IMG/VR virus record: IMGVR_UViG_3300044858_001833
Coordinates: 1 to 40,993 of that record
From: a virus
DNA: 40,993 bases
Direction: 5' to 3' (one strand)
In this document: one piece after another, positions 1,811 through 20,534 of the stretch
Numbering within the stretch: position 1 is the stretch's first letter
How the letters are laid out: every line of letters begins with the position of its first letter
Notes under the pieces: model-generated
Database searches by the model: none
What the model was told of the DNA's origin: nothing
What the model saw: the letters and a program-made list of their open reading frames with translations, nothing else
Position numbers and translations under genes: made by a program

Positions 1811-2179
1811 GTGAACTGCAATACACAAGAAGATTGTTGCTCTCTCTTTGCATTGGGAAATTTCTACTTCTACAACAATGGCAATGGCCCCAACACCATT
1901 GAGAAGGCAAAAGAAGAAATTCTCACCACCATCAAAAAAACCATCCTAGATGATTACATCTATGATGTCAACAAAGAAATTCCATCAGCATTCATTGCAA
2001 GCACTCTGGAGCACCAACAAGCTATCTATGGTGATGCTCTAAAAGCCCTTGGCTTCACCAAAAGACGATTTAAATCCCGTCATCCAGAACAAGATGATTT
2101 GTTCCTGTGGTTCAAAGCAACATATCCACCGGGAATAAAGATATGGATGAAACAAAAATGGAAGGAATTTAACAAATGA
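1811..2179 (+). CDS. Hypothetical protein (122 aa), GTG start
   Basis: The GTG start is preceded by a strong AAGGAGAAGCC. The protein is soluble and mixed alpha/beta, with a basic, aromatic C-terminus (WFKATYPPGIKIWMKQKWKEF) that could contact nucleic acid or membrane. A Cys pair (DCCSLF) is near the N-terminus. No family was recognised. It overlaps the next gene by ATGA, so the two are probably coupled. Confidence 0.8.
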   Translation: MNCNTQEDCCSLFALGNFYFYNNGNGPNTIEKAKEEILTTIKKTILDDYIYDVNKEIPSAFIASTLEHQQAIYGDALKALGFTKRRFKSRHPEQDDLFLWFKATYPPGIKIWMKQKWKEFNK

Positions 2180-2809: not shown

Positions 2810-3071
2810 TTGGATGGTCTTTGTTGACCACGGAGATGCAATCGTGTCCTGTGATAATTACTCAGGACGCTACAAGCAGTACAAAGATGAAATGATTCTC
2901 TCGGTATTCTTCCGAGAGGCTCATGCAGAAGCTTTCGCAAAGGCAATTGCCAGCAAATACCCAGGAAGGGATGTTCATGTTTTTAAACAATCACACGGTT
3001 ACACCGCCACCCCAAGCCCCGTCTCTACAAAAGTCTGGACAGACGACGGTCAGTTCATCCCACAAAAGTAG
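2793..3071 (+). CDS. Hypothetical protein (92 aa)
   Basis: The start MAARRSWMVFVDHGD has GGAGG 6 bases upstream. There are predicted strands at the N-terminus and an Ala-rich helix (REAHAEAFAKAIASKYP) in the middle. No family was recognised. The downstream glutamine amidotransferase begins inside its last third in another frame, so the two are likely translated together. Confidence 0.78.
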   Translation: MAARRSWMVFVDHGDAIVSCDNYSGRYKQYKDEMILSVFFREAHAEAFAKAIASKYPGRDVHVFKQSHGYTATPSPVSTKVWTDDGQFIPQK

Positions 3072-3696
3072 GAAGATTTACTCAGCTCTCTATCATGACT
3101 CAGCACATCTTCATGAATTCGGAGATGTGGACGTTGTCCATCATCCAGCAGAATTGCTAACGGACAATGCAATCTTGATTCTACATGGTGGTGCTGACAT
3201 CTCTCCTTCCATCTACCATCATGTCCCATCAAAACGAACTGGGGCTGAAGAAAAACTTTCTTCTCGTGACTTGAGCGAAGTACTCCTTGCTCAACGTGCA
3301 ATCGAACTCGGCATTCCCATCTTTGGGATTTGCCGGGGAGCACAGCTTGTTTGTGCTCTAGCAGGAGGAAGTTTGATTCAACACGTGGATAACCACATTG
3401 GCGGTGAACATCTGGTTGTTAACACAAAGGGGACAATCTTCTCCACTACCACATGCCACCATCAGATGATGAATCCGTGGGAAGTGGATCACGAACTGAT
3501 TGCTTGGGCTGCACCAGCAAGGAGCAATCGGTACATCGTGGAACACGAGAAAGAAATAGAAATGCCTGTTGAACCTGAAGTTGTTTTCTTCCCAAAAATT
3601 AAGGCATTGGGGGTACAAGGACACCCTGAGTGGATGCGAAACTCAGCCCCCTTCGTGCAGTATTGCCTTCAACTCGTCAAAGAAAGGCTCATCTAA
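2977..3696 (+). CDS. Class I glutamine amidotransferase (peptidase C26, PuuD-like)
   Basis: Cytoplasmic enzyme of the gamma-glutamyl-GABA hydrolase type, which cleaves gamma-glutamyl amides or glutamine. Numbered from this start, the nucleophile is Cys119 in GICRGAQ and the His216/Glu218 pair is in GHPEW; the HHQ motif typical of PuuD-like members is present (CHHQMM). AGGAAGGG ends 6 bases before this ATG; another ATG 6 bases earlier has no spacing. The start lies inside the preceding gene, an overlap of about 95 bases, and the first ~30 residues look unlike the family, so translation could begin later at a non-standard codon. It heads the amide-ligase cassette and may trim a gamma-glutamyl product or supply ammonia. 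Confidence 0.9.
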   Translation: MFLNNHTVTPPPQAPSLQKSGQTTVSSSHKSRKIYSALYHDSAHLHEFGDVDVVHHPAELLTDNAILILHGGADISPSIYHHVPSKRTGAEEKLSSRDLSEVLLAQRAIELGIPIFGICRGAQLVCALAGGSLIQHVDNHIGGEHLVVNTKGTIFSTTTCHHQMMNPWEVDHELIAWAAPARSNRYIVEHEKEIEMPVEPEVVFFPKIKALGVQGHPEWMRNSAPFVQYCLQLVKERLI

Positions 3697-4337
3697 TGTT
3701 ATACCAAGATGTGTATCTGGCTGATTCAAACAGCTACAAAAATCCATACAATGGACACAGTGGCAAACTGGTTGCCCCAACCTATGAAGAATTAGAGAGA
3801 GCCATGGCAACTGTTCTCTCTCAATTTGGAACAGATTGGATTCCAGCAAAAGCCCCTGTATTCGGGGTAAACCGAGAAGTCAACGGAGCTGCCATTTGGC
3901 TTGAAGTGTATGTAGCCAAAGGAACACAAACAGAAACAGTTACTGTTGCTTCTCTGCAGATCAATTGCATTGCAAACAACTGTGGTACTCTACAGATTAC
4001 AAACATCAATGGACTATACAAAGGATTTGCAAAGTTTTTAGTAGCTGCTGTGATTAACTGGGCCAAGTTTGCTGGTTATACCAATCTGATTGGCAACACA
4101 GCTGGGACATACCAGAATGGATATCCTCTCACATGGCTGAGAAACAAGTTTGGTGCTCTTGATTGGGGAACCCCCTACAAGAATGCACGTTCCGGGAATG
4201 TCAACGTCTGGTTTACCATCCCCCTTATTCTTGTGGAACAAGCGGAAATTCCTCCAGAAGAATTGGTGGATGAAGATCCTGATTACCCAGACGACGACGA
4301 AGATGACTATTCTTACGACGAAGAGGAGGAGTTTTAA
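3696..4337 (+). CDS. Cassette protein with possible GNAT-like core and very acidic C-terminal tail (213 aa)
   Basis: The start overlaps the previous stop (TAATG) and has AAAGG upstream. The core has strands (AIWLEVYVAKG, TVTVASLQINCIA) followed by a helix and a G-Y-x-x-L-I-G-N turn that recall the acetyl-CoA/acyl-transferase fold, although the canonical QxxGxG/A loop is not clear. The last ~35 residues are almost all Asp, Glu and Tyr (PDYPDDDEDDYSYDEEEEF). FemX/GNAT-type peptide ligases are known partners of amidoligases, so this may be the acyltransferase of the cassette. Alternatively the acidic tail may be the substrate that is modified. Both ideas are inference. Confidence 0.82.
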   Translation: MLYQDVYLADSNSYKNPYNGHSGKLVAPTYEELERAMATVLSQFGTDWIPAKAPVFGVNREVNGAAIWLEVYVAKGTQTETVTVASLQINCIANNCGTLQITNINGLYKGFAKFLVAAVINWAKFAGYTNLIGNTAGTYQNGYPLTWLRNKFGALDWGTPYKNARSGNVNVWFTIPLILVEQAEIPPEELVDEDPDYPDDDEDDYSYDEEEEF

Positions 4338-4339
4338 AC

Positions 4340-5107
4340 ATGTTTACAATCGGTGCTGATCCAGAGCTCTTCCTGAAAAATCACGATAACAAACTCATCT
4401 CAGTTGTGGGTTTGATTGGTGGAACCAAGCAACAACCAATGCCCATCGGCAATGGTTGTGCCGTGCAAGAAGACAATGTAGCAGCAGAGTTCTGTATTCC
4501 TGCTTGTTATTCCGTCAATGAATTTATCAACAGCATTCAATATTCTCTTGGTGACATTCAAGTACGAGCTGACAAGCTCGGCCTCACCCTCGCCAGCATG
4601 GTGGCTAGTGCCTCCTTCGATCCTGACCAACTGAAGACACGGAAGGCAAGGGAGTTTGGATGTGATCCAGACTTCAATGCCTACACGATGGAAGCAAACC
4701 CAAGGCCACGTGCCGATGACAAAACCCTGCGTAGTGCAGGAGGGCATGTTCACATTGGTACTGACAAGCCTGTTGATCAGGTGATCCGTACCATGGATCT
4801 GATGCTGGGTGTCCCATCGGTTCTTCTCGACCCTGATGAACGTCGTCGTCAGCTCTACGGCAAAGCCGGATGCTTCCGCCAGAAGCCATATGGTGCTGAA
4901 TATCGCACCCTATCCAACTACTGGATCTGGAGCGAGAAGACTATTAAATGGGTCTATCATCAAGTCAAGGAAGGTCTCACCTTCTCTGATGAATTCAACA
5001 AAGAAGCAACTCGTGAAACCTACGACGAGATCATCCACTGTATCAACAACAACGACAAGAGCTATGCAGAGAAACTTGTCAACCAATGGAGCCTTGCACT
5101 TCCATGA
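4340..5107 (+). CDS. phiEco32-type COOH-NH2 ligase (amidoligase, GCS-like fold)
   Basis: 255 aa. Matches the phage family of carboxylate-amine ligases related to gamma-glutamylcysteine synthetase. Hallmarks are GADPEL at residues 5-10, the acidic strand EDNVAAEF at 44-51 (metal/ATP binding), GGHVHIG at 134-140 and YGAEYRTLSN at 184-193. It should form an amide bond between a carboxylate and an amine using ATP. The substrate is unknown. It lies two bases after the acidic-tailed protein and overlaps the next gene by ATGA. A second, different amidoligase is encoded two genes later. Confidence 0.94.
   Translation: MFTIGADPELFLKNHDNKLISVVGLIGGTKQQPMPIGNGCAVQEDNVAAEFCIPACYSVNEFINSIQYSLGDIQVRADKLGLTLASMVASASFDPDQLKTRKAREFGCDPDFNAYTMEANPRPRADDKTLRSAGGHVHIGTDKPVDQVIRTMDLMLGVPSVLLDPDERRRQLYGKAGCFRQKPYGAEYRTLSNYWIWSEKTIKWVYHQVKEGLTFSDEFNKEATRETYDEIIHCINNNDKSYAEKLVNQWSLALP
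4951..4960 (+). repeat. GGTCTATCAT motif, copy 3 (in the COOH-NH2 ligase gene)
   Basis: Exact copy, followed by CA. Here it is read in the other frame, as Val-Tyr-His. Confidence 0.6.
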
Positions 5108-5736
5108 TTCAAGAATCCATCGAAGACTTTCGCAAACGGTATAAAGGAACCTTTGTGTTCCTGAATATCGAGGGCAAAGAACAACTTGTCTACTATGAGC
5201 ATGATGAGGAAGAATCTTTCTCATTCTGGTCTCCAGTCTATGGTGACATTCTAGTAGACAAAGAATGTGCAATGAGCAGATTGTCTTTCATCTTCCCTGA
5301 AAATGGTTTGTATAACATTGGAGGGACTTGCTGGGAATTCAACAGGAACCCAGCACGTCAATGGAAACGTGCTCCATGCCATGAGAACACTGTTTTCTCC
5401 AACCCACTCCATCTCCTTGGTGTCCTTGGGAGAGAACGTCTCAGTCTCACCAGCGGTACAGCACAGGAACTATTCTTCCCTAGCTATCCAAACAGTATTG
5501 AGGAAGCAATTGAAAACCTCAAGCCAATGGTTGCTTTGAACTTAAAGTTTGGTATATCTTGTTCAGCAACCAAAGACAAGAACAAACTCATTCTGTGGTA
5601 TAAGAATGATCCTATTGGGTATGCAAACCCAGAAACAAAGACGATTGAAGTTTATGTTAAGCAACTCTATCAAGAAGTTGTTGACTTCATCAAACGTGAA
5701 GCTTGGACATGGAGCCTTGTGAATAAATGTCAATGA
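5104..5736 (+). CDS. Unknown protein inside the amidoligase cassette (210 aa)
   Basis: It starts inside the previous stop (ATGA); a start 18 bases earlier is possible but unnecessary. The protein is soluble alpha/beta with several aromatic strands (GTFVFLNIEGKEQLVYYEHD, ENGLYNIGGTCWEFN) and no motif of a known ligase, transferase or protease. Its place between the two amidoligases, with overlap on both sides, argues that it belongs to the same pathway, perhaps as a substrate-binding or accessory subunit. That is inference. Confidence 0.85.
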   Translation: MIQESIEDFRKRYKGTFVFLNIEGKEQLVYYEHDEEESFSFWSPVYGDILVDKECAMSRLSFIFPENGLYNIGGTCWEFNRNPARQWKRAPCHENTVFSNPLHLLGVLGRERLSLTSGTAQELFFPSYPNSIEEAIENLKPMVALNLKFGISCSATKDKNKLILWYKNDPIGYANPETKTIEVYVKQLYQEVVDFIKREAWTWSLVNKCQ

Positions 5737-6914
5737 CCATTGCAAAAATTTTGGACGGTCTTCCCAGACTACGTGTCTTCGATGAAGACCTCAAAACATT
5801 TGAAGACGTCAACCCTTTCGTTCCACTCTACCCTGTTGTGGATAAAACTACCTATCTGGGTATTGAGGTAGAAATAGAGAATGTCCGTACTTGGGGAGAA
5901 GGAGCAGGTACACGCTCCCCATACTGGAACACCGTTGAGGATGGTTCTCTACGAAATCATGGGGCTGAATTCATCACCCCACCAATTCGTGCTTGGCGTA
6001 CTGAACATGCCCTCAACCGCCTGTTCTCTGAGGTCAACAAAGACATTGAGTTCACTGAACGAACCTCAGTACATGTTCACATGAACATCAGGACGCTTAC
6101 AATCGAGCAGCTTGAAGCTTTCTTAATCACCTATTTGGTGTTTGAAAAGCTTCTCTTCGATTTCATCGGACAAGATCGTTCAAAGAACATCTTCTGTGTG
6201 CCACTAACAGAAACAAACAACGGACTGGTGATTCAATCCATCATCCGAAACAAAAACCTTTCATTCCCATGGTCTAAGTATACAGCTCTGAATCTTCTCC
6301 CTATCCGGGAAAAGGGAACTGTTGAATTCCGGCACATGCATGGAACGAAAGACATCAAGAAGCTCATGACTTGGATTAACATCATCCTCTGTCTGAAGGT
6401 GTTTGCTCTGAAAAACCCCCCAGAATACATCTGGGAACAAGTAAGAGCTCTAAACACTTCATCTCAGTATGAGCTATTTGCTCAAGAAGTATTCGGAGAT
6501 CTGGCTCAAACCCTATGGTCAACTGACAAACCACAAAGCAAGATTGCAGAATGTGTGTCTTACATCAAGAACAAATGCATTCAAAACACATTCAAACAAA
6601 CTATCTTTGTAGAGGGAGAATCTCCTTTAGCAAACTACATTGGGGAAAAACCTACTTCTTATGAAAGAGATTTAAATGGAACTCCCTTAAGTGCTATGCT
6701 AGAAAGAACAGTTATAAATTCTTTTGAAGATGAAGAACCCATTGTTGATAATGAAAGTATTACTTGGAATCTCACAACACAAGATGCCCTAAATAGAATT
6801 AGAGAAAGTAACATGAGAGAAATGGCAGGGACGGAGGCTCCCCAAAGGACATCGGTCCCCTCAATGGCAGAAATCCTAGCAACCCGACCAATTGTACGAC
6901 CACGGAGAATCTAA
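5727..6914 (+). CDS. Amidoligase_2 family protein
   Basis: 395 aa, glutamine-synthetase/GCS-like fold. Visible motifs are GIEVEIE at 45-51 (metal-binding Glu residues), DGSL at 72-75, GAEFITPP at 79-86, SVHVHMN at 114-120 and EFRHMHGT at 200-207, the usual order in this family. It is expected to join a carboxylate to an amine with ATP. About 100 C-terminal residues past the catalytic core are low in motifs and may be a recognition tail. GGAG lies 12 bases before the ATG; a second ATG six bases on overlaps the previous stop. Confidence 0.93.
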   Translation: MSMTIAKILDGLPRLRVFDEDLKTFEDVNPFVPLYPVVDKTTYLGIEVEIENVRTWGEGAGTRSPYWNTVEDGSLRNHGAEFITPPIRAWRTEHALNRLFSEVNKDIEFTERTSVHVHMNIRTLTIEQLEAFLITYLVFEKLLFDFIGQDRSKNIFCVPLTETNNGLVIQSIIRNKNLSFPWSKYTALNLLPIREKGTVEFRHMHGTKDIKKLMTWINIILCLKVFALKNPPEYIWEQVRALNTSSQYELFAQEVFGDLAQTLWSTDKPQSKIAECVSYIKNKCIQNTFKQTIFVEGESPLANYIGEKPTSYERDLNGTPLSAMLERTVINSFEDEEPIVDNESITWNLTTQDALNRIRESNMREMAGTEAPQRTSVPSMAEILATRPIVRPRRI

Positions 6915-6916
6915 AC

Positions 6917-8179
6917 ATGTGTGGAATTGTTGGAATGGTAACATCAAATACGTATGGCTTCAATGCAAGTAACAGGAAGCTATTTGAACAACTTCTCTGG
7001 GCCAATACACTACGAGGCTCAGACTCCACAGGCATCTTCGGAGTAACCAAGGTAGGAAACGTTGAGTACATGAAAGTGGTGGGAGATCCCACAAACATCC
7101 TGAAACATGAGGACTACAAGGAATTTCATGAAAAGATCTATGATTCCTTCCACATGGTGGTGGGTCACAATCGCAAATCAACACGTGGTGCAACCACTGA
7201 TGAGAATGCCCATCCATTCGTGGAAGAGAATTCCATTCTGGTACACAATGGTACTCTAACCAACCATGCTTCCCTGACCGATCAGATTGTAGAAGTAGAC
7301 AGCCATGCAATTCTCCACAGTATTGTAGAGAGGGGCTATGAAGAAACTCTAAAGAGCATCCAAGGAGCCTTCACTCTGGTGTGGTACACTGCTGAAGACA
7401 AAACCCTTCGCATCATCCGTAACCACGAACGTCCTCTCTACATTGCCAGCACTGTTGGTGCATGGTATTTTGCCAGTGAAAAAGAAATGCTCACTTGGAT
7501 TCTTGGTCGAGACAACGAACAGATCAAGGATATAACCAACTGCAAGCCCGGCACTTTGTACTCCTTCAAACTGGAAGACAAAGAGAACATGTGGTATCAA
7601 CCTATGGAACTATGGAGCCCTCCTAAAAGCACCGGAAAAATTATTATCCCGGATAAAAAGGAAACGACAAAGACAACTGAACCAGAGAAGAAAGATGTCT
7701 ACATCAATGCAGACTTCATCATCGGAACAGACATCACCATTGTCTGTAAAGAGATTCACAATGTAAAGGCCAACTTTGAAGGACAAGACAGGCTTGTCAG
7801 TGGTCATTGGTTCTATGACCCCTCTGTCCAAATAAAAGTATGGACAAACGATAACGAGCTTGAAGCCATCGAAGCCGCAATGGACGACAATGCTGCTGAC
7901 ACAGCAGGAGTGTTGTTCAAAGCAAAGATTCACACAGTAATGCAAAGCAAGGGCAAGTTCACCCTTGTCTGTAAAAAACCAACCCCGTATGAATTGATGT
8001 TCGATCTACAGAAGAATGAAATTACAGATGATCAGTTCATGTTCACAAATGCCAAGTGTAGCTGGTGTGATAGCGATGTCACTCTCCCTGAACTACAGAA
8101 GGGTGTATTCAAATTCACATCAGCAGATGATTATGAAATTTGTTGTCCAACCTGTGCCTCACAATATGGATACAATTAA
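6917..8179 (+). CDS. Class II glutamine amidotransferase with C-terminal zinc ribbon
   Basis: 420 aa. An N-terminal-nucleophile (Ntn) glutaminase domain as in GlmS, PurF and asparagine synthetase: Cys2 (MCGIVG) becomes the nucleophile after Met removal. RGSDSTG (33-39), GHNRKSTRG (83-91) and HNGTLTN (110-116) form the glutamine pocket. It frees ammonia from glutamine. No synthetase or sugar-isomerase domain follows; the last 40 residues carry Cys381-x2-Cys384 and Cys410-x2-Cys413, a probable zinc ribbon that may bind a partner or substrate. The ammonia acceptor must therefore be another protein, most simply a ligase in this cassette. Confidence 0.94.
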   Translation: MCGIVGMVTSNTYGFNASNRKLFEQLLWANTLRGSDSTGIFGVTKVGNVEYMKVVGDPTNILKHEDYKEFHEKIYDSFHMVVGHNRKSTRGATTDENAHPFVEENSILVHNGTLTNHASLTDQIVEVDSHAILHSIVERGYEETLKSIQGAFTLVWYTAEDKTLRIIRNHERPLYIASTVGAWYFASEKEMLTWILGRDNEQIKDITNCKPGTLYSFKLEDKENMWYQPMELWSPPKSTGKIIIPDKKETTKTTEPEKKDVYINADFIIGTDITIVCKEIHNVKANFEGQDRLVSGHWFYDPSVQIKVWTNDNELEAIEAAMDDNAADTAGVLFKAKIHTVMQSKGKFTLVCKKPTPYELMFDLQKNEITDDQFMFTNAKCSWCDSDVTLPELQKGVFKFTSADDYEICCPTCASQYGYN

Positions 8180-8950
8180 ATGAGCCTCTACATCTACCCA
8201 TACAAAATGGCTAGCCAAAGTGCTAGGAATCTAAGGGATGGTCTATCATCTATCTTAGGCTACCGTATAAAGCTTGTACGGCCTGACGGCCATTTCCGCC
8301 CACGGCCCACTGATACTACAATTAATTGGGGAAACTCACAAACTCCAGAAGCTTGGCGATGGAGTACAAAAGTTGATATAAACCACCCTGCTTTTGTACA
8401 AGCTGCCTGTAACAAACTCTCCTCATTCCAAAGATTTAAAGCAAAAGAAGTTTCTACACCTGACTGGACAATTGACCAAGATGAAGCTCAAACCTGGATT
8501 AACGACGGCTATACTATTGTTGTACGGCATTCTCTTACTGGACACAGCGGTCAAGGCATCGAGGTGGTATCGGAGGGTGAACTCCCACATGCCCCTCTTT
8601 ACACCAAGTATAAAAAGAAACGGCACGAATATCGTGTGCACGTATGGAAAGGAGAAGTAATTGATACCCAACAAAAGAGAAAGTCTAGGGAAGCTAATAA
8701 CTCTGGTGCTGTTAATACTCTTATTCGCAATCATTCTAACGGTTGGGTTTTTTGTCATAATGATGTTACTCCCGATATTCGCCGCGATACTCTGGCTATC
8801 CAATCGGTACAAGCCCTCGGACTAAGCTTCGGTGGAGTTGACATCATCTACAATGAACATGAAGACCAGTATTACACCTTAGAGGTTAATTCAGCTCCAG
8901 GTCTTGAAGGAAGTACTGTAAACAAATACGTACAAGCAATTCTGTCATGA
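8180..8950 (+). CDS. ATP-grasp ligase (RimK-like)
   Basis: 256 aa, starting directly after the previous stop. Features of the ATP-grasp fold are a Gly-rich loop GHSGQGI (121-127), a Lys-rich adenine-side segment YKKKRHEYRVHVW (144-156), and metal ligands Asp221 (GGVDIIY) and Glu235-x-Asn237 in LEVNSAPG. These enzymes activate a carboxylate as acyl phosphate and couple it to an amine. The N-terminal domain is short compared with D-Ala-D-Ala ligase, as in RimK-like peptide-tagging enzymes. Its position suggests that it extends or attaches a peptide made with the two amidoligases. Confidence 0.93.
   Translation: MSLYIYPYKMASQSARNLRDGLSSILGYRIKLVRPDGHFRPRPTDTTINWGNSQTPEAWRWSTKVDINHPAFVQAACNKLSSFQRFKAKEVSTPDWTIDQDEAQTWINDGYTIVVRHSLTGHSGQGIEVVSEGELPHAPLYTKYKKKRHEYRVHVWKGEVIDTQQKRKSREANNSGAVNTLIRNHSNGWVFCHNDVTPDIRRDTLAIQSVQALGLSFGGVDIIYNEHEDQYYTLEVNSAPGLEGSTVNKYVQAILS
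8240..8249 (+). repeat. GGTCTATCAT motif, copy 4 (in the ATP-grasp gene)
   Basis: Exact copy, followed by CT, read as Gly-Leu-Ser. The protein is short here and the site lies near its N-terminus. Confidence 0.6.
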
Positions 8951-9144
8951 AAAATAGAGAAGAAATTATTGATTGGTTGGCAGCTTCTATGTACCACCAA
9001 GAAATGAGTGGGGGAACTCCTCAGCTAAGAGAACTTTTCTTTGCTTCGTGGATTCTTGGAGAACACCAGAATGATGTCGAAACCGCTGTGAACAAAAGAG
9101 TAAGGTATTACTGGAAGAACAATAATAAGAAAGGAACAAAATGA
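8947..9144 (+). CDS. Small hypothetical protein closing the cassette (65 aa)
   Basis: It starts inside the ATP-grasp stop (ATGA), so the two are coupled. The sequence is helical (REEIIDWLAASMYHQEM) with a basic C-terminus, ending in Lys/Asn repeats. No family was recognised. By position it could be a carrier or regulator for the ligases, or simply the first gene of the replication block. Confidence 0.78.
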   Translation: MKNREEIIDWLAASMYHQEMSGGTPQLRELFFASWILGEHQNDVETAVNKRVRYYWKNNNKKGTK

Positions 9145-9314
9145 AATGCCTAGCATGTGATAAAATTCTCACCGACCATGAAGCAACACGTCGCTTCAGT
9201 GAATCTAAAGCGTTTGTTGACCTATGTAACCACTGCTTTTACAGTGGAGTTTCTGACGAAGTAAATTTCTCTGAACGAGATGACTTAGCTGACGAAACCG
9301 ATGACCTATGTTAA
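9141..9314 (+). CDS. Small zinc-binding protein (57 aa)
   Basis: MKCLACDKIL has AAGGA 6 bases upstream. Two cysteine pairs, CLAC (3-6) and CNHC (29-32), are spaced like a treble-clef or zinc-ribbon domain; the tail is acidic and ends in Cys. The stop overlaps the primase start by 14 bases. Such small zinc proteins are common next to phage replication genes; the role is unknown. Confidence 0.78.
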   Translation: MKCLACDKILTDHEATRRFSESKAFVDLCNHCFYSGVSDEVNFSERDDLADETDDLC

Positions 9315-11595: not shown

Positions 11596-11782
11596 AACAG
11601 ATTTCTTCGGAGATCGCAATTGTAAATCAACACGGAAGTTTGAAGCAGATGAGTTGTCAGAAGTAATTCTGCAAATGGAACTCTTCTTGAAAGGATGTGG
11701 ATATTATGTGGAGAATCTAACCTATGACATACCAAGTGTTGGATGTCGAAACTACGACATTCCAGAAGGGGAACCCTTTTAG
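11570..11782 (+). CDS. Small hypothetical protein (70 aa)
   Basis: MKFLFLASETDFFGDRN has GGAGG 6 bases upstream. It contains a KFEADELSEVILQMELFL helix and several cysteines, without a clear metal site. It overlaps the polymerase start by 59 bases, so its translation probably drives that of the polymerase. No family was recognised. Confidence 0.77.
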   Translation: MKFLFLASETDFFGDRNCKSTRKFEADELSEVILQMELFLKGCGYYVENLTYDIPSVGCRNYDIPEGEPF

Positions 11783-12839
11783 TAGACGTAACAAACTAGT
11801 AGTGGTTGGTGTTGGTGAATATATGGGTATGGACAAACAAGAGATCCAATCCAGAATTGACAACACACAACTGCTTGTTGGATTTAACATTAAGTTTGAC
11901 TTACATTGGATACGCAATTATGAAATTGATTTCAGTCGCTGTGCTGTTTGGGATTGCCAACTCGCTGCCTTTCTTCTTTCTGGGCAGTCTGTCCCCTATC
12001 CATCTCTTGATGGTGTTTCTAGCTTCTACGGGCTCGGTAGCAAGCTTGATGTGGTATCTACAGAGTATTGGGACAAAGGAATTGACACCACGGAAATCCC
12101 CGAAGAAGTGTTGCTCGACTACCTCAAGCAAGACTTGCTGCTGACAGAGCGGGTCTATCATCATCAACTCAAACTCTTTGAATCAGAACCACAGCTCTAC
12201 AAGCTCTTTAAATTACAGTGTCAAGACCTACTCGTTCTCCAAGATATGGAATGGAACGGAATGGATTTCGATGTCGAAAGAGCAGAAGAACTTGCTAAGA
12301 AAGAAACTGAACGAATCCATGAAATTGAGGTAGAACTACAGGAGGGATATGAAGACATACCAATCAATTTCCAAAGCCGTGATCACCTTTCTGCTTACCT
12401 TTATGGCGGCTCTATCTCCAATGATGTACGTATGCCTATTGGAGTCTACAAAACGGGAGCGAAAACCGGACTCCCTCGTTATAAGATTGTAGAATACAAG
12501 TATGAACTACCTCAACTAATCAAACCACCTAAAGGATCGGAGCTTAAAAAAGATGGATTTTTCGCAACGGACGAGGGAACCCTTAGAAGTATTAGCTGTA
12601 ACAGGCAGGCTCGTCGCAGACTTGACCTTATTCTGGAACGATCTCAATCGAGCAAACTTGTGGGGACTTACTACAGAGGAATACCAGAGCTTATCGGAGA
12701 GATGGACTGGTCTGATGGGAAGATTCACGGAACTTTCAACCAATGTGTTGCTGCTACTGGGAGGCTTTCGAGCAGCAGACCCAACCTCCAAAACTTCGCA
12801 AACGAAGTCGACAAGCTCCTAGTGAGCAGATATAAATAA
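11724..12839 (+). CDS. Family A DNA polymerase, N-terminal part (3'-5' exonuclease and start of polymerase domain)
   Basis: 371 aa. Exonuclease motifs are DVE at 7-9, GFNIKFD at 53-59 and YLKQD at 133-137. The polymerase domain begins with the TGRLSSSRPNLQN motif near the C-terminus, then stops at SRYK, just before motif A should appear. Motif A and the rest of the palm lie in the same frame 500 bases downstream, after an HNH gene. So the polymerase is probably made as two polypeptides that assemble. Joining base 12832 to 13349 restores an uninterrupted frame (LLVSRY then FVVLVNVDAKALE). Confidence 0.94.
   Translation: MTYQVLDVETTTFQKGNPFSRRNKLVVVGVGEYMGMDKQEIQSRIDNTQLLVGFNIKFDLHWIRNYEIDFSRCAVWDCQLAAFLLSGQSVPYPSLDGVSSFYGLGSKLDVVSTEYWDKGIDTTEIPEEVLLDYLKQDLLLTERVYHHQLKLFESEPQLYKLFKLQCQDLLVLQDMEWNGMDFDVERAEELAKKETERIHEIEVELQEGYEDIPINFQSRDHLSAYLYGGSISNDVRMPIGVYKTGAKTGLPRYKIVEYKYELPQLIKPPKGSELKKDGFFATDEGTLRSISCNRQARRRLDLILERSQSSKLVGTYYRGIPELIGEMDWSDGKIHGTFNQCVAATGRLSSSRPNLQNFANEVDKLLVSRYK
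12152..12161 (+). repeat. GGTCTATCAT motif, copy 5 (in the polymerase gene)
   Basis: Exact copy, followed by CA, read as Val-Tyr-His in the exonuclease domain. This is the last copy seen. Confidence 0.6.
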
Positions 12840-12842
12840 TAC

Positions 12843-12871
12843 TTGACATTGTACTGTATTTATAGTATAAT
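12843..12871 (+). promoter_or_regulatory. Perfect-consensus sigma70 promoter for the HNH gene
   Basis: TTGACA at 12843-12848 and TATAAT at 12866-12871 have a 17-base spacer, only 30 bases before the HNH start and with AAAGGAG in between. It lies in the short inserted stretch after the polymerase stop, so the mobile gene carries its own strong promoter. Confidence 0.8.
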
Positions 12872-12901
12872 AGTACTATACACTACTAAAGGAGTACTAT
12901 T

Positions 12902-13372
12902 ATGGTAAGAGTAAGAACAGAAGAGTACAAAGAAAAACAACGTATTTACAATAAGAAATATCATCAAGAACATAAAGAAGAAAGATTAAAGACAATTAAT
13001 CAGTGGAAAGAGAACAACCCAGAAAAAACTAAACAATATGTAAACAACTATAGAGAACGACATCCCATTGATTATATTCTAAGAAGGGCAAAAATGCGGG
13101 CTAGACAACTAGATCTAGATTTTAATTTAGAAAAAGAAGACATCATTGTTCCAATGATTTGTCCCTATCTTAAAGTACCACTTAAGTTTGAAATGGGAAA
13201 GGGATACCAGGATACTAATATCTCTTTAGATCGTATTAACAATTCAAAAGGATATATTAAAGGAAATGTTGAGGTAATTTCAACATTAGCAAATAAAATG
13301 AAAGCAAATGCAGACTGGAAACAATTAGAAATATTTGCTACTGAGGTACTTCGTCGTGTTGGTGAACGTTGA
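12902..13372 (+). CDS. HNH homing endonuclease splitting the DNA polymerase
   Basis: 156 aa. The N-terminal half is basic with repeated Tyr/Asn/Lys helices (KKYHQEHKEER, QYVNNYRERHP), probably for DNA binding. The nuclease part has CPYLKVPL, SLDRINNSKGYIKGN (Asp110) and the closing LANKMK helix typical of phage HNH enzymes. AAAGGAG is 7 bases upstream. It is AT-rich with its own promoter, sits exactly before polymerase motif A, and its last 5-6 codons overlap the second polymerase gene. Such enzymes cut uninvaded alleles and spread by repair. No ribozyme core fits in the remaining ~45 bases, so this looks like a free-standing insertion and not an intron. Confidence 0.92.
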   Translation: MVRVRTEEYKEKQRIYNKKYHQEHKEERLKTINQWKENNPEKTKQYVNNYRERHPIDYILRRAKMRARQLDLDFNLEKEDIIVPMICPYLKVPLKFEMGKGYQDTNISLDRINNSKGYIKGNVEVISTLANKMKANADWKQLEIFATEVLRRVGER

Positions 13373-14087
13373 TGCAAAAGCCTTAGAGGTTCTTTGTGCT
13401 GCATATCTCAGTAATGATCCTATTCTTTGTAACGAGATAATTACTGGTGTAGATATGCACCAAAATAATCAGAATGATTTCAAACTACCAACAAGATTAA
13501 TAGCGAAGACATTAACCTTCAGAATTTTGTATGGAGGTACTGAATACTCATTCGCGCAAGACCCAGATTTTACTGAAGTCTCTACTAGTAAGAAATATTG
13601 GAAAGAGGTGATTGAAAAGTTCTATGACAAGTATAAAGGGCTTTCTTCATGGCATAGTAAACTTATACAAACAGCTTCCAGTACTAATAAAATAGTAATG
13701 CCTACCGGCAGATTCTATACCTATGAAAGCTATCTTAGGAATGGAGATATCGTTTGGCCTAGAACAACTATTTTAAATTACCCTGTCCAAGGTCTTGGTG
13801 CCGACCTCATGTCAATCATCCGAGTGTCTTTCCACAAACGATTCAAAGCAGCTAGATTTGTGGGACAAGAGATAAGCACCATCCACGATAGCATCGTTGT
13901 AGATGTACCAAAAGAAGAAGTAGAAGCAGTTTGTCGTATGTTTGAGAGTGTGTTTAACGATCTCCCTATGAACTTTGAGCGTGTCTTTGGAGTGCCATTC
14001 AATCTCCCTAGCCGTTGTGAAGTTTCTTACGGAAATGATAAATATTCCTTGCAAACATGGGATGGAAATGGTATAATAATAGTATAG
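13356..14087 (+). CDS. Family A DNA polymerase, C-terminal part (palm and fingers)
   Basis: 243 aa from the GTG start, which follows GAGGT at 8 bases; the frame is also open upstream to a TTG at 13335. Motif A is LVNVDAKALE (Asp6), motif B is RLIAKTLTFRILYGG and motif C is STIHDSIVVD (His177-Asp178). All polymerase catalytic residues are here, while the proofreading exonuclease is on the upstream polypeptide. The start codon and binding site lie inside the end of the HNH gene, so ribosomes finishing the endonuclease can start the polymerase half. Confidence 0.92.
   Translation: MLVNVDAKALEVLCAAYLSNDPILCNEIITGVDMHQNNQNDFKLPTRLIAKTLTFRILYGGTEYSFAQDPDFTEVSTSKKYWKEVIEKFYDKYKGLSSWHSKLIQTASSTNKIVMPTGRFYTYESYLRNGDIVWPRTTILNYPVQGLGADLMSIIRVSFHKRFKAARFVGQEISTIHDSIVVDVPKEEVEAVCRMFESVFNDLPMNFERVFGVPFNLPSRCEVSYGNDKYSLQTWDGNGIIIV
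14050..14078 (+). promoter_or_regulatory. Likely sigma70 promoter for the ssDNA-binding gene
   Basis: TTGCAA at 14050-14055 and TATAAT at 14073-14078 with a 17-base spacer, at the very end of the polymerase gene. Transcription would begin at about 14085 and give a leader of roughly 120 bases. Confidence 0.5.
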
Positions 14088-18452: not shown

Positions 18453-18530
18453 CGTCTTCGTAAAACATTAGAGAAAGAAGGAGGGGAACTTGTCAGAGAC
18501 TATAAAAGATACTCCTCAAGAGAGATATAG
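18432..18530 (+). CDS. Doubtful basic micropeptide, possible remnant (32 aa)
   Basis: A frame MHGKRRFRLRKTLEKEGGEL starts in the hairpin and ends inside the HNH gene. It is very basic. It could be the start of a gene interrupted by the HNH insertion or a chance frame; only the gap it fills supports it. Confidence 0.2.
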   Translation: MHGKRRFRLRKTLEKEGGELVRDYKRYSSREI

Positions 18531-18903
18531 AAAAAAGAATCCAAAACTCTATAGGAAAGCTGCTCTAAAATATTATCACAATAATAAAGAAAAATGTTCT
18601 GAACGTGCTAAAAAATATAGAGAAGAAAATAAAGAACACATTAGAGACAAACAAAGGGAAGCCAAAAGAAAGAGAAAACTAGAAGCAATACAGTATCTCG
18701 GAGGTAAATGTATATCCTGTAAAGAAGAATTTCATCCAGCAGTGTATGAATTCCACCATAGAGATCCTAAAACAAAAGATAGAGACCCATCCAAGATGTT
18801 ATCTCTTTCATGGGAAAGAGTAGTAAAAGAACTAGATAACTGTGATCTTCTATGCGCTAATTGCCATAGACTAGAGCACCACAGAGAAAGTTACCAATGT
18901 TAA
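18490..18903 (+). CDS. HNH homing endonuclease in front of the reductase gene
   Basis: 137 aa from a TTG start placed 5 bases after AAGGAGG. The N-terminal half has basic Tyr/Asn/Lys helices (KYYHNNKEKCSERAKKYREE) like those of the polymerase-splitting HNH enzyme. The nuclease core shows Cys74-x2-Cys77, His89-His90 (YEFHHRDP) and Cys122-x2-Cys125-His126 (CANCHRLEHH). It is AT-rich against the background. Its stop overlaps the reductase ATG, so the insertion seems to have landed exactly between that gene and its binding site. Homing next to reductase genes is known in other phages. Confidence 0.88.
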   Translation: MSETIKDTPQERYRKKNPKLYRKAALKYYHNNKEKCSERAKKYREENKEHIRDKQREAKRKRKLEAIQYLGGKCISCKEEFHPAVYEFHHRDPKTKDRDPSKMLSLSWERVVKELDNCDLLCANCHRLEHHRESYQC

Positions 18904-20534
18904 AACAATGTTTTAAAACTTCATTTGCACATAACATCTTTAGAAACAAATATGCCCAAGGACCAGAAGACACTTGGCCTGCTCTATGCGAACGACTAGT
19001 TGAAGATGTGTGTGGTACTAGGTGGGGTACTGATCGTGCTCTTATGTCAGCGGAAGACCGTAAACAACTTGTGCAGTATATGATTGATTTTAAGATGGTA
19101 GCCGGAGGGCGTTATCTATACTATGCAGGAAGACCTAACAAAGCCTACAATAACTGCTACCTTCTACGTGCGGAAGAAGATACAAGAGAAGAGTGGGCAG
19201 CAGTAACTTGGAGGGCAATGAGTTGTCTAATGACAGGAGGTGGGATTGGCATTGATTATTCACGACTTCGACCCTATGGAAAACCGCTATCTCGGACTGG
19301 AGGGATTAGCTCCGGCCCATTGCCTCTTATGTCTGCTGTTAATGAAGTTGGTAGGAGTGTCATGCAAGGAGGATCTAGACGCAGTGCTATCTATGCCTCC
19401 CTCAACTGGCAACATGAAGATATCCCCTCCTTCCTCACAATCAAGAATTGGACAGAGGATGTACGAAGACTGAAGGAAAAGGATTTCAACTTTCCAGCTC
19501 CGCTGGACATGACCAACATCAGCTTGAATTACGATGATGCTTGGGGATGTGAAGCAGGTAATCCAATCTTCCTTGAGAACTGTCGTCAAGCTATGATGAC
19601 AGGAGAACCAGGTTTTAGTTTCAACTTCGGAGATAAAGAAAATGAAACTCTTCGTAACGCTTGTACCGAAGTTACGTCTGAAGATGATTCTGACGTTTGT
19701 AATCTTGGCTCAATCAATATGGGTAATATTAAGTCTCTGGAAGAGTTCAACGAAGTTGTTGCGCTTGGCTCCAAATTCCTGGTCTGTGGGACATTACGTG
19801 CCGACCTTCCCTATGAAAAGGTCTATAAGATTCGGGAGAAAAACCGTCGTCTTGGACTGGGCCTTATGGGTATGCACGAGTGGCTCCTTCAACGAGGACA
19901 GGGATATGAAGTAACTCCAGAATTACACAAATGGCTAGAGGTATACAAGAATGAATCTGAAAGAGCAGCTAACGAACATTGTGAACGACTATACATTAGC
20001 AAGCCAGTTGCTTACAGAGCCATTGCACCAACTGGCAGTATTGGGATCCTTGCAGGCACGACTACTGGAATTGAACCTCTATTTGCAGTCGCTTATAAAC
20101 GAAGGTATCTCACTGATGGAACTAAGTGGAAATACGAATATGTCGTCGACTCCACAGCAGACCTCCTCATCCGTGAGTATGGGCTCAACCCAGACAACAT
20201 CGACACAGCCTACAAACTAAGCCATGACTACGAAAGACGAATCAAGTTCCAAGCAGACGTACAAGATTACGTTGATATGTCAATCTCCTCAACTATTAAC
20301 CTTCCACCCTGGGGAACGAAAGATAATTGTGAAGCCAAGGTACACGAGTTTGCAAGGACTCTTGCCACATATTCTCCAAGGCTTAGGGGATTTACCTGTT
20401 ATCCGGATGGAAGCCGAGGAGGTCAGCCCCTCACAGAAATAAGCTACGAAGAAGCAATGAAGCACAAAGGCACTGTGTTCGAGGAGAACGATGTATGTAT
20501 GATTACAGGAAAGGGTGGCTCATGCGGGGTGTAA
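18897..20534 (+). CDS. nrdJ: Class II (adenosylcobalamin-dependent) ribonucleotide reductase
   Basis: 545 aa, making deoxyribonucleotides without oxygen dependence but requiring vitamin B12. Recognised segments are YNNCYLLRAEEDTREEW (first redox Cys), SCLMTGGGIGIDYSRLRP, DVCNLGSINMGN (second redox Cys), APTGSIGILAGTTTGIEP (phosphate loop) and a C-terminal GGSCGV. It is shorter than many bacterial NrdJ proteins but of usual phage size. The first residues (LKQCFKTSFAHNIF) look complete. The start has no good binding site and overlaps the HNH stop, so it probably depends on translation of that gene. No small subunit is needed or seen. Confidence 0.94.
   Translation: MLKQCFKTSFAHNIFRNKYAQGPEDTWPALCERLVEDVCGTRWGTDRALMSAEDRKQLVQYMIDFKMVAGGRYLYYAGRPNKAYNNCYLLRAEEDTREEWAAVTWRAMSCLMTGGGIGIDYSRLRPYGKPLSRTGGISSGPLPLMSAVNEVGRSVMQGGSRRSAIYASLNWQHEDIPSFLTIKNWTEDVRRLKEKDFNFPAPLDMTNISLNYDDAWGCEAGNPIFLENCRQAMMTGEPGFSFNFGDKENETLRNACTEVTSEDDSDVCNLGSINMGNIKSLEEFNEVVALGSKFLVCGTLRADLPYEKVYKIREKNRRLGLGLMGMHEWLLQRGQGYEVTPELHKWLEVYKNESERAANEHCERLYISKPVAYRAIAPTGSIGILAGTTTGIEPLFAVAYKRRYLTDGTKWKYEYVVDSTADLLIREYGLNPDNIDTAYKLSHDYERRIKFQADVQDYVDMSISSTINLPPWGTKDNCEAKVHEFARTLATYSPRLRGFTCYPDGSRGGQPLTEISYEEAMKHKGTVFEENDVCMITGKGGSCGV

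Follow-up and report, generated by a model that had tools for sequence, protein, structure and literature searches.

A predicted phage amide-ligation cassette with a recurrent core protein and a probable gamma-glutamyl hydrolase

Introduction

What would eight adjacent phage genes, several of them for predicted amide-forming ligases, make during infection, and on which molecule would they act? The genes lie in the virus record IMGVR_UViG_3300044858_001833, the 40,993 bases of which we call the window; its virion-like genes are on the minus strand and its replication module is on the plus strand. At 2977-9144, eight plus-strand open reading frames (ORFs) run head to tail, their stops and starts either overlapping or set apart by very few bases, an arrangement that an earlier note on this DNA had described and that we find in full. 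Their products, with the handles used below, are:

2977..3696, +, '1' (GAT1), class I glutamine-amidotransferase fold of the Peptidase C26 type, PuuD-like; predicted gamma-glutamyl amide hydrolase (from Pfam, nearest solved chains and triad conservation)
3696..4337, +, GNAT-like candidate of the hypervariable family Y, with [CN]CG ... NxxSGN motifs and an acidic C-terminal tail (from slot and motifs)
4340..5107, +, 'C', phiEco32-like COOH-NH2 ligase type 2 (PF14395, phrog_3815)
5104..5736, +, 'x', core protein of the LUZ24 gp17 family; SH3/Tudor/Sm-like barrel and a second alpha/beta domain with an RxPxRQ(W)KR motif (phrog_11055, AlphaFold2)
5727..6914, +, 'A', Amidoligase_2, a ligase with a glutamine-synthetase-like fold (PF12224)
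6917..8179, +, '2', class II (Cys2, Ntn) glutamine amidotransferase with a Cys-rich, zinc-ribbon-like C-terminal end (GATase_6)
8180..8950, +, 'R', RimK-like ATP-grasp ligase (PF08443, phrog_2599)
8947..9144, +, small protein overlapping the end of R by ATGA (ORF)

Neither 3696-4337 nor 8947-9144 matched a family in Pfam, PHROGs or NCBIfam. A good ribosome-binding site precedes the ATG of GAT1 at 2977, with an alternative start upstream at 2923, and for the GNAT-like gene 3696 (TAATG overlap) is the likeliest start, rather than 3630.

Two amidoligases of the glutamine-synthetase fold (PF14395 and PF12224) that share an operon-like block with an ATP-grasp ligase and a glutamine amidotransferase define a type of cassette that is already known and named. 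New here are x as a core member, the fold of family Y, and the reading of GAT1 as a hydrolase. We favour, at a probability of about 0.55, a chemistry that combines amide ligation with gamma-glutamyl cleavage.

Gene order and linkage

Two viral scans, with the COOH-NH2 ligase profile and with the ATP-grasp profile, provided 80 loci each, and profiles made from the relatives found first were then searched iteratively against every ORF of 168 sequences, including the window and its own duplicate (L001). The comparison covers about 180 related loci overall, some of which share one contig, so that counts are not fully independent. A fully flanked set comprises the 90 loci in which the seed gene has 5 kb or more on either side.

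Of 167 sequences, 56 have the genes in the order 1-C-x-A-2-R; other orders are the minimal A-2-R (31), 1-2-C-x-A-R (8), gR1C2A (7) and rarer ones. In the fully flanked set, A and 2 are present in 90/90 loci and R in 84/90, and the core genes are all on the same strand in every locus (90/90). As dozens of diverged phages hold the same families together in one and the same order, chance co-occurrence is excluded, and the concern that homologous genes might never occur together is refuted. We infer that A, 2 and R form the minimal pathway. ATP-grasp-seeded loci without C (n=15) had no GAT1, x or gamma-glutamyl cyclotransferase (GGCT).

The COOH-NH2 ligase is present in more than 300 public phage records. 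Chromosomal versions amount to 12 matches among 84,980 species genomes, all on contigs of at most 50 kb from metagenome-assembled genomes, and a plasmid scan gave only two weak Amidoligase_2 matches. A search for membership in defence systems gave zero PADLOC matches.

Ligases and the class II amidotransferase

Curated Pfam cut-offs were exceeded by C (COOH-NH2_lig, PF14395, 52.9 bits vs cut-off 25, E 3.9e-14), A (Amidoligase_2, PF12224, 39.7 vs 22, E 6.6e-10), 2 (GATase_6, 65.6 vs 27, E 5.6e-18) and R (RimK, PF08443, 28.5 vs 21, E 1.4e-6), with PHROGs matches for C (phrog_3815, E 8.5e-81) and R (phrog_2599, E 4.3e-81). This agrees with the earlier proposal that the block is one of the multi-ligase cassettes for amide bonds attributed to Iyer and Aravind; later papers credit the idea to Iyer et al. 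2009.

Loss of active-site residues had been named as an observation that could overturn this proposal. Judged by sequence conservation (114-162 relatives per family), the catalytic residues of the cassette enzymes are intact. C and A retain their invariant Glu/His/Arg/Asp sets, including every position that is 100% conserved among 128 relatives of C, and the invariant Glu and His positions of A. The Cys2 glutaminase site predicted for the class II enzyme is present and 98% conserved, the Arg, Asn and Gly positions of that family are 100% conserved (162 relatives), and the glutamine-site Asn/Gly are intact in the window. In R, Lys 8414, Lys 8675, Asp 8840 and Glu 8882 (100% conserved) and Asn 8888 (98%) are all kept. 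The cysteines in the C-terminal ~40 residues of 2 are also conserved in relatives, which suggests a zinc-binding tail.

The nearest solved chain of R is RimK (E 7.5e-10), and its nearest NCBIfam models are MptN (tetrahydromethanopterin:glutamate ligase) and the RimK family, both matched weakly. R shares with the RimK/MptN alpha-L-glutamate ligases the ATP-grasp domain and a conserved C-terminal E-x-N ... PGLEG region, but scores under all curated NCBIfam cut-offs (48.9 vs 143.4 bits for the subfamily TIGR00768), so that we label it RimK-like only.

The class I protein

GAT1 belongs to the Peptidase_C26/GATase group (PF07722, 68.3 bits vs cut-off 20.5, E 1.1e-18), and its nearest solved chains are Lin1909, probable Gln amidotransferases and PuuD. 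With PuuD and gamma-glutamyl-CDP-amidate hydrolase it shares the class I fold and a Cys-His-Glu triad (Cys codon 3331, His 3622, Glu 3628; 99-100% conserved in 114 relatives). The nearest NCBIfam models, gamma-glutamyl-CDP-amidate hydrolase and gamma-glutamyl-GABA hydrolase, are weakly matched, and the best equivalog score falls far short of its cut-off (38 vs 250 bits), so that the kinship with these enzymes holds at family level and not at equivalog level. Since its kin (C26, PuuD, gamma-glutamyl-CDP-amidate hydrolase) are gamma-glutamyl amide hydrolases, GAT1 is more likely a gamma-glutamyl-cleaving enzyme than an ammonia-supplying glutaminase; the "two glutaminases" of the earlier note are probably wrong. 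The C26-type protein would be the gamma-glutamyl-cleaving enzyme (GGCT and/or a class I GATase) that is expected in a predicted peptidoglycan-modification cassette.

In the fully flanked set GAT1 was seen only alongside C, as all 24 ATP-grasp-seeded loci with GAT1 have C and none of the 15 without C has GAT1 (p 3e-7). Across 75 C-bearing loci, GGCT is present in 8/10 without GAT1 vs 18/65 with it (Fisher p 0.002, before kinship), LUZ24 and the phiEco32-type phage Bas86 being C-bearing, GAT1-less carriers of GGCT. This is suggestive of a partial exchangeability of GAT1 with GGCT. A strict mutual exclusion is ruled out by the 18 C-bearing loci that have both.

The same enzyme bears on another possible product, a soluble metabolite that would be gamma-glutamylated or amidated and might be cofactor-like, nucleotide-linked or antibiotic-like. 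Gamma-glutamyl would protect a group on it until GAT1 or GGCT took it off, by analogy with butirosin and with polyamine PuuA/PuuD chemistry. The nearest NCBIfam models of GAT1 and R (MptN), the GNAT-fold family linked to the cassette, and the restriction of GAT1 to loci with C all fit such a product. Those model matches are all weak, however, and none of the window ORFs that were scanned was recognised as coding for a carrier protein, a cytidylyltransferase or a kinase; we consider a small-molecule product doubtful.

Core protein x

The earlier note had suggested that the protein at 5104-5736 may belong to the pathway, and this is borne out: wherever both neighbours are in view (95/95 loci), x sits between C and A, and it is a real core member of the cassette. 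It belongs to phrog_11055 (E 4e-9), a family without assigned function, and takes the same position in Bas86, LUZ24, Privateer, LAh_8 and pSal-SNUABM-01. In the gR1C2A and 1C2A loci, among them that of the crAss-like cr108_1, x was not detected.

An AlphaFold2 model of x from 58 sequences is confident (pLDDT 94.0, pTM 0.88) and has two domains. Over residues 1-65 it is similar to SH3/Tudor/Sm-like barrels, a small and common fold (best Z about 7), and for the entire chain Foldseek gave no confident match to a known fold in the PDB. The full chain does match ten viral predicted structures at E <0.001, one of them from Salinivibrio phage CW02, a phage listed among the cassette carriers (PMC5498523).

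The fold of x, together with the kinship of R, raises the possibility of protein modification, in which the ligases would attach glutamate or a short isopeptide to a protein of the host or of the phage, x serving as substrate or adaptor, and translation or another machine would be redirected. RimK, the closest solved chain of R, attaches glutamate to ribosomal protein S6; the first domain of x is SH3/Tudor/Sm-like, and x also contains an Arg-rich motif that is conserved; and the cassette lies within a replication/early module beside the primase-helicase. But R scores far under the RimK cut-off (48.9 vs 143 bits), and two extra ligases and a gamma-glutamyl hydrolase exceed what protein glutamylation needs. 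We regard this explanation as unlikely.

The GNAT-like slot and family Y

Genes that precede C or GAT1, or that follow R, at a median of 15 bases from a core gene, form a fast-evolving family, Y, with 45 members in 32 loci, often two per locus, characterised by the motifs [CN]CG and N-x-[NRK]-[ST]-G-N. In a structure model of a representative (from locus L127) the core exceeds pLDDT 90, and nearly all of its top PDB matches are acetyltransferases of the GNAT type (Foldseek probability 1.00; best Z 8.0, root-mean-square deviation 2.8 over 111 residues). The modelled fold of Y, reported here for the first time, is thus that of GNAT.

The slot of the gene at 3696-4337 is one that confirmed Y genes also occupy. 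When a pattern combining the two motifs was applied to 3255 ORFs of at least 120 aa, this gene was the sole match outside Y (besides its L001 duplicate); the pattern was composed after the window gene had been seen and matches only 29 of 45 Y members. Against the Y profile, the hidden Markov model (HMM) score of 3696-4337 is not significant (E 0.5), and neither tblastn in phages nor a pattern scan of viral contigs found direct relatives. We consider it a probable divergent member of Y; the earlier description as GNAT-like thus holds for the fold of the family to which it appears to belong, while its own profile score does not bear it out. At 1811-2179 (+), a 122-aa ORF with DCCSLFALGNF, like the first Y motif, scores weakly (E 0.3) and is possibly a second Y-like copy.

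In phages without detected Y, pairs of genes of ~300-400 aa lie just before C, or in cr108_1 just before GAT1 (L181:5443-7380, L180:8711-10887 on the minus strand, L185:7144-8975, L186:7225-8990, L184:6448-8349). In LAh_8 and cr108_1 the two are paralogous to one another; they match no known family and by HMM are neither Y nor GAT1. HMM comparison likewise gave no support for the LUZ24 gp14/gp15-type tandem genes as homologues of Y or of the class I protein.

Comparison with described cassettes

The early block of LUZ24, tf and UFV-P2 (LUZ24 gp16-gp22) has C-x-A-2-small-R on one strand, upstream of the primase/helicase, and HMM searches confirmed the same families as in the window for LUZ24 and tf. 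Published descriptions of UFV-P2 and tf give the same enzymes, and the UFV-P2 table and the tf record also agree in their order. LUZ24 and tf differ in having no detectable class I hydrolase and a BtrG-like GGCT after R, whereas the window has the hydrolase and no GGCT was found in it. phiEco32-type phages such as Escherichia phage Bas86 share C-x-A-2-R (x recognised by HMM, E 2e-10) but have GGCT in place of the class I hydrolase and two ~300-400 aa genes in the slot before C.

The Peptidoglycan Modification Cassette of PSA-HP1/RIO-1, compared by its published description, also has two amidoligases, an ATP-grasp enzyme and a glutamine amidotransferase amid replication genes (PMC5498523); it differs in having GGCT plus a GATase, and its function, too, is a prediction. 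It is said to be common to phiEco32, 7-11, PA11, tf, MR299-2, LUZ24, PaP3 and CW02 (PMC5498523), and the module is reported also in a LUZ24-like phage (PMC11945000); action on peptidoglycan is a prediction only in both papers. PSA-HP1 expresses its cassette genes immediately upon infection (PMC7082346). Because the cassette is already named (PMC5498523, PMC11945000), its novelty is below what the earlier note implied.

Proposed chemistry and target

We propose that the Cys2 enzyme (2) would split glutamine and hand ammonia to, or work with, the adjacent A, which would form a carboxamide or isopeptide bond, and that R would add an amino acid, probably glutamate, onto a carboxylate. In larger versions such as that of the window, C would form an amide of the gamma-glutamyl type, and gamma-glutamyl amides would be cleaved by the neighbouring C26 hydrolase or, in other phages, by GGCT. 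If C makes such an amide and a neighbouring hydrolase cleaves it, a group would be attached and then removed or edited. As probable non-ligase partners, x would bind or carry the substrate and the GNAT-like protein would transfer an acyl group. The individual reactions are read from families and residues, and their pairing from gene linkage.

The weakest point of this reading is the target. Our tentative first choice, in line with earlier authors, is a peptide carried by a precursor of the cell wall, the wall being altered during infection; a small molecule and a protein come next, and a DNA base last.

Several results weigh against this interpretation. The literature consulted on such cassettes yielded no demonstrated product or substrate, as the earlier note had stated, and C and A have no convincing match by sequence to solved relatives. 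No cassette protein of the window reaches a curated NCBIfam cut-off, so that substrate specificity is not readable from relatives. Once kinship is taken into account, the GAT1/GGCT exchange loses its significance (~4 GAT1 changes on the tree, few independent pairs), which is why we call it suggestive only, and Privateer and pSal-SNUABM-01 have neither enzyme within 9 kb. Finally, the window has no feature that points specifically to the cell wall over a protein or metabolite.

A product or target unlike those of known amidoligase pathways is also conceivable. In such a phage-specific assembly line a gamma-glutamyl-protected amide would be built on x as a dedicated carrier or adaptor and elaborated by the fast-evolving GNAT-like transferases, with the C26 hydrolase or the cyclotransferase as interchangeable means of deprotection; we think this improbable.

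Genomic surroundings

The primase/helicase begins at 9301, so that the cassette adjoins the replication module, as in predicted phage peptidoglycan-modification cassettes. Between the two, at 9141-9314 (+), lies a small protein (MKCLACDKILTDHEATRR...) with a CxxC...CxxC pattern, look-alikes of which form a family that recurs beside the cassette, in 18 'full' loci and in 8 'minimal' ones.

The position beside replication genes, a dCMP deaminase and a ribonucleotide reductase would also suit a hypermodification of DNA bases by amino acids and amidation. No hydroxymethylase, 7-deazaguanine pathway or DNA kinase was recognised among the window ORFs scanned, however, and we know of no report of hypermodified LUZ24- or phiEco32-type DNA; this explanation is very improbable.

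Further downstream, a DNA polymerase I-type gene (11724-14087, +) appears split into 11724-12839 and 13335-14087, and the ORF between the halves (12902-13372) resembles a homing endonuclease; the polymerase gene of LUZ24 is reported to contain an intron (PMC3517423). At 18897-20534 (+) is a ribonucleotide reductase large-chain barrel domain (PF02867), with an HNH-like ORF immediately upstream (18490-18903).

Biological significance

The chemistry of these cassettes has had no demonstrated product since it was first proposed, despite their wide spread in phages. The present comparison yields a minimal set (A, 2, R), places x in the core and predicts a hydrolase instead of a second glutaminase, and the E. 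coli phage Bas86 and LUZ24 are tractable carriers of the same genes. As the block recurs across very diverse phages, a chemistry that is as yet undemonstrated would appear to be widely used in infection.

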